NCBI GenBank assembly: GCA_025558075.1
Contig: JAHLKF010000007.1
Span: forward strand, 372,001 to 436,000
Direction of reading: 5' to 3'
Length of the DNA stretch: 64,000 bases
From: Gaertneriomyces semiglobifer
Taxonomy: Eukaryota; Chytridiomycota; Chytridiomycetes; Spizellomycetales; Spizellomycetaceae
A model generated the notes under the pieces. The model worked only from the letters and a program-made list of their open reading frames with translations, was not told the DNA's origin and did not search any database. Position numbers and translations under genes: made by a program. Below, in pieces: positions 18,586 through 24,386 of the stretch (position 1 is its first letter; the number at the start of each line of letters is the position of its first letter).

Positions 18586-20990
18586 CTATACGTCCTCCTT
18601 CTCAACGTCATCCTTTTCATTCTCGAGGTCCTTTGCCTTAATTTCTTCTTCAATCGGATCCGCAGGAGCTGCGCGCATTGGACTTAGTGGTGGCGCACTT
18701 TTCCCTTGAGTGCTGAAACTCTTTCCGCCCTGTGATAACTGTCCAAGCACCTTGAACCGCGCCGCAAACTTTGCCAACTTATTCACGTTATGGTGGAATG
18801 CCGAAACCTGACCGGCGCCAGCCGCTGAGCGAATAACACGGCAGATATTGTTGATCTTGTCCTGATGCTCCTTGCCGAATGGTTTTCCTTCCGTCACATA
18901 AAACGGTACGTCGTAGCGATCACGGTTTGGAGAACCCGTGCTTGCAAGAAAGTCAATAGAACCGCGACCAGACATGTTGGAGCGCAAGTCCATAGAGCCT
19001 TCTCGAGTCGTTGGCGAACCTAGAGCCTGGCCAGACCGAACGAACTGAGCGTCCGAATAAGATTTGCTGCGCGAGTCTGAGGCCGCAAGCTTCTTAACGT
19101 AGGCACTGGTGTTGTGGTCAGGTGCGAAGACCACAATCGATATTTTCGCACCGAACAAGGATACCAGGACACACGAAGTGCCGATGAAGATACCCCCACA
19201 CATGATAATGTAGCGACCGGCGAATGAGTTCACGAGTGCGTACACTGCCAAGCAGATGGTCAGGATAAAGGTCGTACAAAAACTAGCGGCAGCAATGGCT
19301 TTGGATTCGTTCAACATTGATGTAAGGTCTTTCAACTTCAAACTGAAGAAGATGCAAGCCGACAGCATTGCATACTTCAAGCCAAGGACCACACCAATGA
19401 AGACCTGGGTATTTCGAGACTGGCAAGCGTAGTAAAAGTTGTTCCCACCGTCCAAGGAAATCATCGTCGCCGTGAGTGGATCGTAGGCCGTCCACACAAT
19501 ATACACGATGGCGTTGATACCGCAAATGGCGAGGACCCATTGCATGATAGCAAGGTTGCTTCCATTGTATTGAATCACTCGAGACGAGCTGAACAAGAAG
19601 ATCCGGTACAATCGGTAGGATTTCATGATAATGGCCGAGAATGTGATGTCGAAACCAAGACCAAGCAACCAAGGCAACGATTTACAACCAATGTCGATGG
19701 TCCTTTGGCTGGCCGATTCAAGCGGTTCTTGAAAGCTGATGGCGATCATAGAGCTGTAGGCCAAGAGTAATCCAACAATAATGACATTGTTGAAAAAGTA
19801 CGACGAGCCTTTGATAAGCGGCGTATTCTGGTAAATGAATGCGAAAGCCGCCGCACCCAATGTCGCAAGAAGTCCCAAACCACCGAGAAGGAAGAAAGCA
19901 TATATAGATCCAGGCGATATAGCGTTTGGTGGGAAAAGTGTGTTCAATACTTGCGCTTTGTAAGACGGTAAGAATTGGTTGAGTGATTGCGAGTCAAATT
20001 GCATAAACGTCTGAGTTGCACCAGAGCTAGCAACTTCCGAAATGAAATCCCGGTTCCGGTTGAGTCGGTTGAAAGTATCAGAGATGCCTTTGACGATGTG
20101 AGGTGGCGTTCCAGCAGGCACACCTACACCACGGTAAATTCCTTCGACAAAGTTGATACCTAGGGTTTTGAAAGTAGGTGCCTCGATCTGTGCGAATTCA
20201 AACTCGGCGGCAATGGCGATGACACGAATTTTCGAAGCATGAGCCCCCAACACCACGGGCGTCGTAGTCCAAACTGCATCATAAACCCCATCTATGGTCT
20301 TGGTCAACGCGGTATCGGCACCGTCACCAGCAGAGTGATAGGCAAACTTGATATTGGTCAACCGCTTCAGTCGCAACGAGCCAACTTCGAAAACAGTTCC
20401 CAATCCAGCGCCAGAAACACTGATTTCCCGCGCAGCGCACGCAGCTACGAAGTCCGCCCAGTTCAATATCGGGCTATCAATAGGCACCGCAAGGACAAGC
20501 GGTGTGTAGGTATGAATGTACGCAATCTCAATGTCATCCTCACTGTAACCAGCGGGGATAACCTTGTCACTTACAACCGACGGAAGACGCGGTTGCAAGA
20601 AAATGTGCGGCAGGTTGATGAGAGTGATCTAACAAACAGTTATTCAGTTGGCGCTCTGCGGCTTTATCTTGAATGAACAACACTTACAACTGAGCCGTCC
20701 TTAGGATGCTCCTTCACTTGACGCCATCCAGCTGCTCCGGATTCCGCGGGTACATAGTCCATCTCCGCTTCATACGGTGTTGAGCCTTGCCAAGCGTTAA
20801 CCGCGGGATCATTGAACCATGTTTCGTGCAGCTGGGCGATCGATGCAGAGCCACCGCCTTGCTTGAATGGTACCAGATATCGAAAATTCCCATTGGGCCA
20901 GGTATAAGAGGAATCACCAGCTGCAGCAGCGATGCAAACAAGCAAACCCTGACAGACCAGACTGAACAATATACCCGGCTTGAAAACCAT
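18586..20990 (-). CDS. TctC/Bug solute-binding domain fused to class C-like 7TM receptor
   Basis: Exons 20990-20688 and 20628-18586 with a 59-base intron (GTAAGT...GTTAG, phase 0); 781 residues. A signal peptide (1 to about 24) precedes a complete Bug/TctC-type domain (about 35-335). The first strand and loop are YLVPFKQGGG, then INLPHIFLQP, VSGAGLGTVFEVG, FAYHSAGDGADTALT, RVIAIAAEFEF and GVPAGTPPHIVK. In bacteria these bind carboxylates for the tripartite tricarboxylate transporters. Seven hydrophobic helices follow (about 340-605), with class C/GABA-B-like landmarks: LGFDITFSAIIMKSYRLYRIF, and a last helix ending AKISIVVFAPD. The tail (about 175 residues) is Ser-rich. Predicted plasma-membrane receptor for a small carboxylate (inference). 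An arrestin-like gene is the next gene on the same strand. Confidence 0.85.
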
Positions 20991-21761: not shown

Positions 21762-24386
21762 TTATAAACCCGGAAAACCTGCAAAAAGCCTGTCGATGGT
21801 AGCCGAAATCTCATCCTCACTTTGCACCCTATGCGTTCGGCCTGTACTTACAGTGCCGTTTTGGCTTCGTGCTGCAGGCGCGGTTTCGATATTAGATTGA
21901 TCATGGTTCTGCATGTTAGGTATTGCATCGGTGTCACCAGTTGTCGTCGGAGAAAAGCCTGTTCCGACGTGCGCACTGGCCAGTGCATTCAATATTCTCA
22001 AGTCTTCTTCCTGCCTTGAAGTGCGAGTACGCTGCGCAAATGCATCAATGGGCTGTGTCCTGTAGCTGGTTGAAGATACGGTAGAGGTTCGGGCTGGTTC
22101 TGATGGGGCTTGACCCGGTTGCACTGCCAAAGCTCTGGCCAACGTCGAGCTGTTTGATTCGCGTCCATCAGCGGCGCCCAACAACGGTGGGAGCGGCGGG
22201 GCCGGTGGGGGTGCCGTGAACGTCGCAAAAGGTTGCGGCGGTGGAGGCGGTGGAGGAGCTTTCTTTTTCAAGCGTGGCACTTGCGCCTCACCAGGTCCAG
22301 CGGATGTACTTGAAGAGTTGTGGGTTAAGGAGTTCATTGAGCTGTTCGATGGAACTCGAAATGGATTGGTTTCGAGATGGGGAGTTTGGGGTCTCGGTAA
22401 AGGTATCTTGTCGTAAGAGCCCCTTTCAGCTGAAGGAGCGAAAAAGGTGCCGCTGAGCTGACGCACCACTGGAAGCGCAGGTGGAGACGGTGGGTTGGCA
22501 GCGTACGGGGCCCCGGCTTTCCAACCTTGAACTTTTTCTCCGTAAGTCATTGGGACGGGTTCTTCAGTTGGGTGGTCTTGAAGCTCCACATTCGATTCCT
22601 CCAACTTCTCTTCATCGCTGACGCTGTCGTCAGGAAGGAATGTGACCGGTGCTTCAGCATTAACATCTTCGTCGCGCTGCTCCTCCTTCATGTAGTTCTC
22701 AACCATCCGTTCTTGAGCTTGTACTGTTTGCGGCAGCACTCTTGGGAACGCGATCCGTGGGCTTGGCAATTCTGAGTACAATGATGCTGGGTGGAGAATT
22801 GTAATGGGAATCTCGACTTGTATTGGCGCAGATCCTTTCGGTGTAGCGGAAACCAACAAGACATAAGAGACATCAACGAGCGATCCGAACCGAATTGTCC
22901 TCGCGTGGACCTGACGGATTTCTTAACGTTTGTCCAAAGATAAGGAGGCTCACGTGCACGTACCGGAATGTCAACATCGAGAACAATGTTTTTAAATTCA
23001 TTAGGTTTCACTCCACTCCAAGTACCATGTGGTTGCCTTTGCGCTTTCAAAGTCTCATCTTCCGCCCAGCTTACGCGTGCACGCGTAATCGCATGCCCAC
23101 TGTTCCTCGGCTGCTTCACACGTTGAAAGTTGCGTGTTGCTACAATTTGGCGGGAAAATGACATTGGTAGGAGAGAAGGAGTGGATCCAGGGTGTGCGTT
23201 CGCAGCCACCAGGTCAGCTGGCATAATGGCATCGGGGGAGAAGGTCTTCAGTCGACGCACTAAGGACAATGCTAAATCGTTCACCTTGGAAGAAAACGCT
23301 CAGTTGCAAGTCGCGCGGTGTTCAAATCCCGCAAAGTTTCCCACCTTGCGCTCACTCCCATTCTCGACTTCAACATTGACGTACCCAACCGATCCGGCAA
23401 CCCAGTGGCCCACGAGACTAGACCGCATGGTAGCAGTCCCTTCCAGTGGGTTGGTAAGATCTTCCGCCTGTGGGACCCGCAACCACGCCTTCAACCTCAC
23501 TTCGCCCTTTTTCCCCCAGACGAATTTACCGTCTACAACAGATGTAGCTTCAGCGAAATGGGGGGATCCTGGACGAACAGTAGCCGGAAATCGCGGTAAA
23601 GCAATAGTGTTCAAAGGAGCTGACTCGTAGATGAGCAGCTCAGTAAAGGCGCTCAGCGGCGGCTGGGGAATCGATAGAGTTGCGCTTTTGGGATGGATTG
23701 TGCTGTGGCCAATGATCAGTATGGCATCAGGGTTTCAACAAAGTAATTATGATCCATACCCGCATACAACATAACGGATTCCACCAAGTTTGGAATTCCA
23801 GAAGCTTCCAGGAAGCATTGCCGGTGGAGGAACATGCTTGACCAGCAGGCGTGGATCCATCGTTGGGTGAGGCTTACCGAGCGGCACAAAAAAATTAACA
23901 GTATGCCGCCCCTTTCGTGCGTGCCACATTCCATGCTCATCAGGAGGTCCGGCAATAACCACATCAGTTGGTGGGAGGTGCGAAAGGGAGGCCGATTGTA
24001 GAATATGGGTGTAGTACACCAGTAAACGCTTGTGCGGATTCGCCTTATCTAGCGTTTCTACAGCTCCAGTTAGCACCCTACTATGCACGCATGCTTATAG
24101 GCTCCATACCTTCCCATCCCACAACGTCAACGCACACTTTGCCGATCTTCATTCCACTTTTGTTGACGTCGATCACCAACCGTCCACTTACGTTAGCCGA
24201 AGCGAGAGAAGAAGTGCGGTCTAATTCAATCCTGACGCTCACACCACCCGCATTTGACATGATCTTGCCAGGTTTGGAGAAGAAGGATGGAATAGGGACC
24301 GTGCTCTCAGAGTGAGCAGCGGACTCCACACCGCTAGTCAAAGGATTCGTCTGCCATTCTGATGGTGATGCCACCGCTGCTGACAT
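21762..24386 (-). CDS. Arrestin-family adaptor (ART-like)
   Basis: Five exons: 24386-24110, 24057-23760, 23702-23346, 23285-22964, 22910-21762; introns of 52-60 bases; 800 residues. The 60-base third intron contains an in-frame TGA, so without splicing the protein would stop. The arrestin N-domain starts with VSGRLVIDVNKSGMKIGKVCVDVVGWE and the C-domain includes VNDLALSLVRRLKTFS and VHARTIRFGSLVDVSYVLLV, all typical arrestin strands. The last 330 residues are Pro-rich and disordered (PPPPPPP stretch near 22245). Alpha-arrestins recruit HECT ubiquitin ligases to membrane receptors and transporters and drive endocytosis. I see no PPxY motif. It lies between two 7TM genes on the same strand. Confidence 0.85.

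Follow-up and report, generated by a model that had tools for sequence, protein, structure and literature searches.

A candidate solute receptor of chytrid fungi joining a bacterial-type TctC/Bug ectodomain to a class C-type seven-transmembrane domain

Fungal receptors of the glutamate family (class C) were surveyed by Krishnan et al. (2012, PMC3251606), whose 96 receptors include SPPG_00031 of Spizellomyces punctatus, labelled LysR_substrate (Pfam clan CL0177), the same label being carried by AMAG_01751 and AMAG_04246 of Allomyces. About half of the class C receptors of gut fungi were reported in 2016 to have type II binding domains of the sugar type (PMC5168858), a 2025 classification gives 918 fungal receptors of the glutamate class, with enrichment in Blastocladiomycota and Chytridiomycota, and a 2026 review lists the fungal glutamate-like receptor class as uncharacterized (PMC13308352). 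The present work concerns a gene of the chytrid Gaertneriomyces semiglobifer located at positions 20990-18586 (minus strand) of a 64,000-nucleotide stretch, hereafter the window (contig JAHLKF010000007.1, positions 372,001 to 436,000), which fuses a TctC/Bug domain, a family of bacterial solute-binding proteins, to a class C-type seven-transmembrane (7TM) domain. The architecture and reality of this fusion gene are near certain, and we put at roughly 0.72 the probability that it encodes a cell-surface receptor with an ectodomain of bacterial descent and solute-driven G-protein signalling. The gene has two exons and a product of 781 amino acids (aa), with the following features in window coordinates.

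20688..20990, minus strand: exon 1 (303 nt), with the ATG start, a signal-peptide-like hydrophobic N terminus (about residues 1-27) and the start of the TctC domain (to residue 101)
20629..20687, minus strand: intron of 59 nt, phase 0, GTAAGT...TTAG, within the binding domain; the public protein model omits the same intron
18586..20628, minus strand: exon 2, with the remaining TctC domain, the 7TM domain, the tail and the TAG stop
19927..20628, minus strand: exon-2 part of the TctC domain, residues 102-335 (Pfam TctC 132-321; fold match to about residue 336)
19114..19911, minus strand: class C-type 7TM domain, residues 341-606 (Pfam 7tm_3 344-596; model of an ortholog compared with receptor chains)
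18589..19113, minus strand: tail, residues 607-781, a variable Ser-rich part followed by a helical pair (about 681-745)
19754..19856, minus strand: coding stretch of 103 bases (residues 359-393) apparently removed in the public 360-aa model, as judged from the public protein sequence

Both domains were recognised by Pfam in the window protein, TctC with 37.4 bits (cut-off 27, E 2.7e-9, residues 132-321) and 7tm_3 with 124.3 bits (cut-off 33.5, E 8.4e-36, residues 344-596), and the scan gave nothing else at E <= 1, a cysteine-rich domain included. An earlier note on this DNA, made from the letters alone, had proposed a complete two-lobe Bug-type domain fused to seven helices of class C type, to be checked by profile searches, structure prediction and a tree, among others, and this architecture was confirmed. 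The Pfam match covers the later part of the binding domain only, its beginning being supported by PDB alignments and by fold comparison, which places the whole in the two-lobe TctC fold, while the AlphaFold model of the ortholog SPPG_00031 (P0003) has an N-terminal helix, a two-lobe domain and seven membrane helices with a strand pair between helices 4 and 5. The type I Venus-flytrap ectodomain that is usual, though not universal, in class C is absent here: ANF_receptor matches neither the window protein (E <= 1) nor ten relatives (E <= 10), and with the fold being that of TctC, a Venus-flytrap ectodomain, which the note had named among the outcomes that would overturn its proposal, was rejected.

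The intron interrupts the binding domain after residue 101, and the two domains meet (about residue 335-340) inside exon 2, whose reading frame is open for 680 codons; the coordinates agree in this with the note, which had placed the intron in the binding domain and the junction within one exon. The GC (guanine plus cytosine) fraction is 0.499 in the coding sequence and 0.502 in the whole window. The N-terminal signal peptide, also claimed by the note, is putative, being read from hydropathy and the P0003 model. A proline-rich open frame of 386 codons (stop to stop) adjoins the gene at window positions 21762-22922 on the minus strand.

For the seven helices, the structure model of the ortholog matches GABA-B, GPR156, CaSR and mGlu chains, GABA-B and GPR156 being among the best receptor fold matches. 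A disulfide between a Cys at the top of transmembrane helix 3 (TM3) and another in extracellular loop 2 (ECL2) is typical of class C receptors, and both residues (C416 and C503) are invariant in the ten sequences compared; the 'PK' of TM7 is AK in the window protein. The long Ser-rich tail of the earlier note proved to be only part of the tail, since beside the Ser-rich stretch there is a helical pair (about residues 681-745, window 18697-18891, minus strand) with 34-43% identity to seven relatives and a predicted local distance difference test (pLDDT) score of about 85 in the P0003 model. Its consensus among relatives, RDRINxLxRVI...HVxKLxxFAxRxxV, is found in all aligned full-length relatives; it has no Pfam match above a cut-off and is perhaps a signalling or dimerisation element.

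The same fusion is found in other chytrids. Each protein search scored only the approximately 8,000 candidates sharing most words. With the window protein, 13 proteins were matched at E <= 1e-3: nine are relatives (P0001-P0009, identity 53-60%), and the other four, at 21-26%, are 7tm_3 proteins that bear ANF; P0014 and P0015 were gained through a search with an ectodomain profile, and a full-length profile search added no relative of the TctC-7TM kind. Named sources are Spizellomyces punctatus, Spizellomyces sp. 'palustris', Powellomyces hirtus, Geranomyces michiganensis, G. variabilis, Borealophlyctis nickersoniae (two proteins), Phlyctochytrium arcticum and Fimicolochytrium jonesii, P0001 being a metagenome protein; for the four species looked up, the NCBI orders are Spizellomycetales (Gaertneriomyces and Fimicolochytrium), Rhizophlyctidales (Borealophlyctis) and Chytridiales (P. 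arcticum). Pfam detects TctC in eight of ten relatives and 7tm_3 in nine, the exception being P0015, the 276-aa Fimicolochytrium model, which ends within the TctC domain.

The public model of the present gene (P0014, BC832DRAFT_434011) has an ectodomain 100% identical to that of the window protein and is only 360 aa long, ending in ...LLATLAL. This end fits a single acceptor in the tested stretch, giving a 103-nt 'intron' at 19856-19754 (derived from the protein and not from an exon table). The residues thereby lost, 359-393, are identical at 19-24 of 35 positions to each of nine relatives, whose proteins continue past this point, and removal of the 103 bases shifts the frame, so that the public model is most likely wrong. 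Domain counts built on public models can therefore miss such receptors.

The bacterial affinity of the ectodomain, suspected in the earlier note, was borne out both by profile search and by trees. The next matches of the ectodomain profile, behind the fungal proteins, are TctC-only proteins at 24-33% identity; every one with a named source is bacterial, and 19 of the nearest share an invariant N-L-P-H...Q-P and R-G...V-P. The ten fungal-type domains come together as one clade (100/100) in a tree of 55 rows, on a long stem (2.11 changes per column), and group there with 36 of these TctC-only rows against nine other TctC rows (100/100); a 114-row tree likewise yields one fungal clade. Trees with constrained fungal placement are about 10 log units better than the free 55-row tree (approximately unbiased test, p 0.70 and 0.69), so better trees than the free one exist and we name no donor; on these sequences the fungal domain may lie inside the bacterial NLPHI subfamily or beside it, two placements that the trees do not separate. 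When the fungal alignment was run against named prokaryote genomes, 166 stretches matched and none of them was confirmed. In a search for a protein of the basal subfamily, TctC proteins at 39-42% identity were found in 4/4 genomes reached through loci; 369 genomes of a class yielded none at E <= 1e-80, in a search that had no positive control. With the intron inside the domain and its owners found only among chytrids, transfer from bacteria followed by fusion would be the simplest history, and the single clade formed by each of the two domains fits a single fusion.

The genomic surroundings of the bacterial relatives were surveyed at 80 loci, the best of 563 confirmed stretches for one query, so that the counts lean toward that subclade. 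In these loci (L030-L109), members of a bacterial TctC subfamily with a nearly invariant N-L-P-H (the string is present in 70/80) and an Arg often adjoin sulfolactate-like or tartrate-like enzyme genes. Grouping of open frames, with each group named from one representative, gave TctA at 65/80 loci, TctB at 21, an Ldh_2-type dehydrogenase at 28, tartrate dehydrogenase and an enolase-superfamily protein at 25 each, a galactarate/altronate-dehydratase-like protein (GD_AH) and a 2-hydroxyacid dehydrogenase at 20 each, a YeiH-type exporter at 12, MOFRL at 10 and a small SAF-like protein at 7, with none of the enzymes seen at 12/80 loci. Pfam backs the representatives for TctA, TctB, Ldh_2, 2-Hacid_dh, MOFRL, MR_MLE_C and GD_AH. 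With NCBIfam, only the tartrate dehydrogenase and YeiH representatives exceed a cut-off; Ldh_2 is closest to L-sulfolactate dehydrogenase (204 bits against a cut-off of 500), GD_AH and the SAF-like protein match galactarate dehydratase below cut-off, and TctA and TctB match nothing. The GD_AH and SAF-like neighbours may be the sulfolactate lyase SuyB/SuyA. At a locus of Chromohalobacter marismortui, GD_AH, TctC, TctA, TctB, 2-hydroxyacid dehydrogenase and Ldh_2 are encoded consecutively on the same strand; a GntR regulator and YeiH lie upstream, on the opposite one. In published slcHFG sulfolactate systems, C. salexigens included, tctB likewise lies downstream of tctA (PMC5812351), and slcHFG-slcC-comC and suyAB are reported in another bacterium (PMC10507020). 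Judged by these neighbours and the published slc systems, many operons of the subfamily look made for sulfolactate- or tartrate-type acids, and the NLPH subfamily may be a recognisable ligand class among binding proteins of tripartite tricarboxylate transporters (TTT).

The fungal pocket keeps part of this pattern and departs from the rest. The pincer loop lies in exon 1 (PFKQGGGSA, residues 41-49), and of the motif P-F-x-A-G-G-x-x-D, which a review describes as almost, though not fully, ubiquitous (PMC5812351), P, F, G and G are retained in 10/10 fungal sequences, whereas the final D is Ala in all ten and the A position is Lys, Gln or Pro in 9/9. When the fungal domains were aligned to the TphC contacts reported in PMC8556258, Phe42, Gly45, Gly46, Asn106-Leu-Pro-His109, Gly204 and Arg267 were retained in 10/10. 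In nine sequences, 12 of 16 TphC pocket positions are invariant, compared with 84 of the 267 remaining ectodomain columns (one-sided Fisher p 7e-4), and with P0015 added the figures are 12/16 and 70/215 (p 1e-3), both values being uncorrected for shared descent and based on a list of 16 positions compiled after the alignment was seen. Taken with the residue changes, this invariance is most naturally read as a cleft that is under constraint but whose tuning has moved away from that of bacteria; a carboxylate, proposed as ligand in the earlier note, or a sulfolactate-type acid may or may not be what it binds, the pocket departing from that of the bacterial relatives.

The genome holds approximately 15 class C-type loci, grouped from 28 exon matches, with an adjoining ectodomain match to ANF_receptor in seven, to SBP_bac_1 in one (just upstream of C4:109324-111304) and to TctC in one, the present gene. 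Six others (C26:141117-141842, C26:279780-280602, C20:359280-360007, C24:57078-57998, C4:1053108-1054128 and C1:583959-584758) have no adjoining match to ANF, SBP_bac_1, PBP_like_2, OpuAC or TctC, and their ectodomains may be further unlisted binding modules; PBP_like_2 and OpuAC have no match in the genome at all. The ANF_receptor match at C12:218245-218874 falls in an open frame of 879 codons, near which no 7tm_3 match is listed; it may belong to a different type of receptor. The genome has at least five G-alpha loci. TctA has no genome match at E <= 0.001, while 5/14 control genomes do match (TctB lay outside this search), so the carrier subunit with which TctC/Bug proteins work was not found. 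In a 7TM tree with the other class C loci of the genome, which contains many long branches and joined partial exons, eight TctC receptors form one clade (100/100) without a resolved sister; the TctC domain may have replaced an older ectodomain or been newly fused, both of which the note had put forward.

The reading of the gene as a receptor draws on its architecture, predicted fold, conservation, pocket invariance and the G-alpha genes of the genome, and from these we infer membrane orientation, ligand binding, lobe closure, G-protein coupling and use. If it works as its two parent families do, a small solute of acidic or similarly polar character would enter the cleft, the two lobes would close and the motion would travel through the short linker to the seven helices, by which an intracellular heterotrimeric G protein would be activated; guiding zoospores or germlings toward nutrients would be a plausible use. 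Small-solute sensing through the TctC domain is likely, and the gene architecture suggests that these chytrids may sense small solutes through this receptor type. Several points weigh against it. Ala49 takes the place of the motif Asp in all ten fungal sequences, and at residues 181-182 nine sequences carry Phe-Glu and P0015 carries Phe-Asp, in place of the Asn (27/28) and His (18/28) of the bacterial rows, so that carboxylate binding may be lost or altered. Pfam gives no TctC match to P0003 or P0005 even at E <= 10, their assignment resting on alignment, plus fold for P0003, and confidence in the membrane part of the P0003 model is only moderate (about 43-89 in blocks of 10 residues). The public 360-aa model lacks the 7TM domain, and a truncated splice form may also occur. 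A more specific proposal, that a captured TctC of the sulfolactate/tartrate transporter subfamily became a zoospore chemoreceptor for a small hydroxy- or sulfo-acid from decaying plants, pollen or bacterial spores (the ligand may be sulfolactate, tartrate, malate or an altered one suiting the new acidic pocket residue), seems to us quite doubtful; we know of no class C receptor that senses such acids through a TTT-type domain.

The changed pocket could also belong to an ectodomain that no longer binds a ligand, in a partner subunit of a heterodimer with another class C receptor of the genome, as GABA-B2 is the non-binding subunit of its own. The lost Asp, the long stem before the fungal clade and some 14 other class C loci as potential partners favour this, but pocket positions more invariant than the remaining domain would be needless in a non-binding cleft, and we regard it as unlikely. 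Two separate genes were rejected on the conserved frame across the junction. Two products, a soluble or single-helix TctC-like protein with the 7TM part separate or vestigial, would agree with the public models of Gaertneriomyces and Fimicolochytrium, which hold TctC only, but appear highly improbable given that the bases apparently spliced out encode conserved residues read through by nine relatives, that their removal shifts the frame and that exon 2 is open along its length. As the nearest non-fungal relatives found for the ectodomain are bacterial-type TctC proteins, a bacterial tctC misjoined to a fungal receptor by contamination or assembly error had to be considered; this can be practically dismissed, since the intron lies within the bacterial-type domain, the identical fusion recurs in proteins of other assemblies, coding GC matches the window and the contig is 924,567 bases long.

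If the receptor reading is correct, the gene would be a case, bounded by a chytrid clade, of a bacterial transport protein turned eukaryotic sensor. It suggests that flytrap modules of very different origins can be joined to the class C 7TM core, making the ectodomain an exchangeable part, and because ligands and crystal structures are known for the family of the binding domain, an orphan fungal receptor becomes directly testable by offering a small number of acids to the soluble domain in purified form.

As to novelty, the TctC identity is not in the texts searched, although the ortholog itself was listed in 2012 and fungal class C receptors with type II domains were described in 2012 and again in 2016. 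The terms 'tctc' and 'tricarboxylate' do not occur in the main text of PMC3251606, nor 'tctc' and 'periplasmic' in the available text of the 2025 classification, nor 'tctc' and 'GPCR' in that of the main text of a survey of transfers into 44 early fungi, nor, by term search, 'tctc', 'periplasmic' and 'chytrid' in that of an eLife 2025 paper on animals' close relatives; no other report of TctC-7TM receptors was found in the literature searched, which was mostly without subscription papers and without preprints.

Among described systems, SPPG_00031 is an ortholog (58% identity over 99% of the query region), for which current Pfam gives neither LysR_substrate nor TctC (E <= 10) and the predicted fold is that of TctC. 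The gut-fungal receptors are alike in placing a type II solute-binding domain before a class C 7TM domain in early-diverging fungi, but their ectodomains are likened to sugar-uptake binding proteins, with 'tctc' and 'tricarboxylate' occurring nowhere in the available main text of PMC5168858. GABA-B and GPR156 share the class C 7TM core, with no cysteine-rich domain matched in the window protein; the GABA-B ectodomain is a type I (ANF) flytrap, and GPR156 to our knowledge has no flytrap ectodomain. The bacterial TctC/Bug proteins (TphC, AdpC, MatC, Bug27 and, by gene cluster, SlcH) share the fold and the pincer-loop Phe and two Gly with the fungal domains, and one bacterial subfamily also the N-L-P-H stretch and an Arg, but they are free periplasmic proteins serving TctA/TctB carriers, whereas the fungal forms are fused to a 7TM domain and lack the motif Asp.
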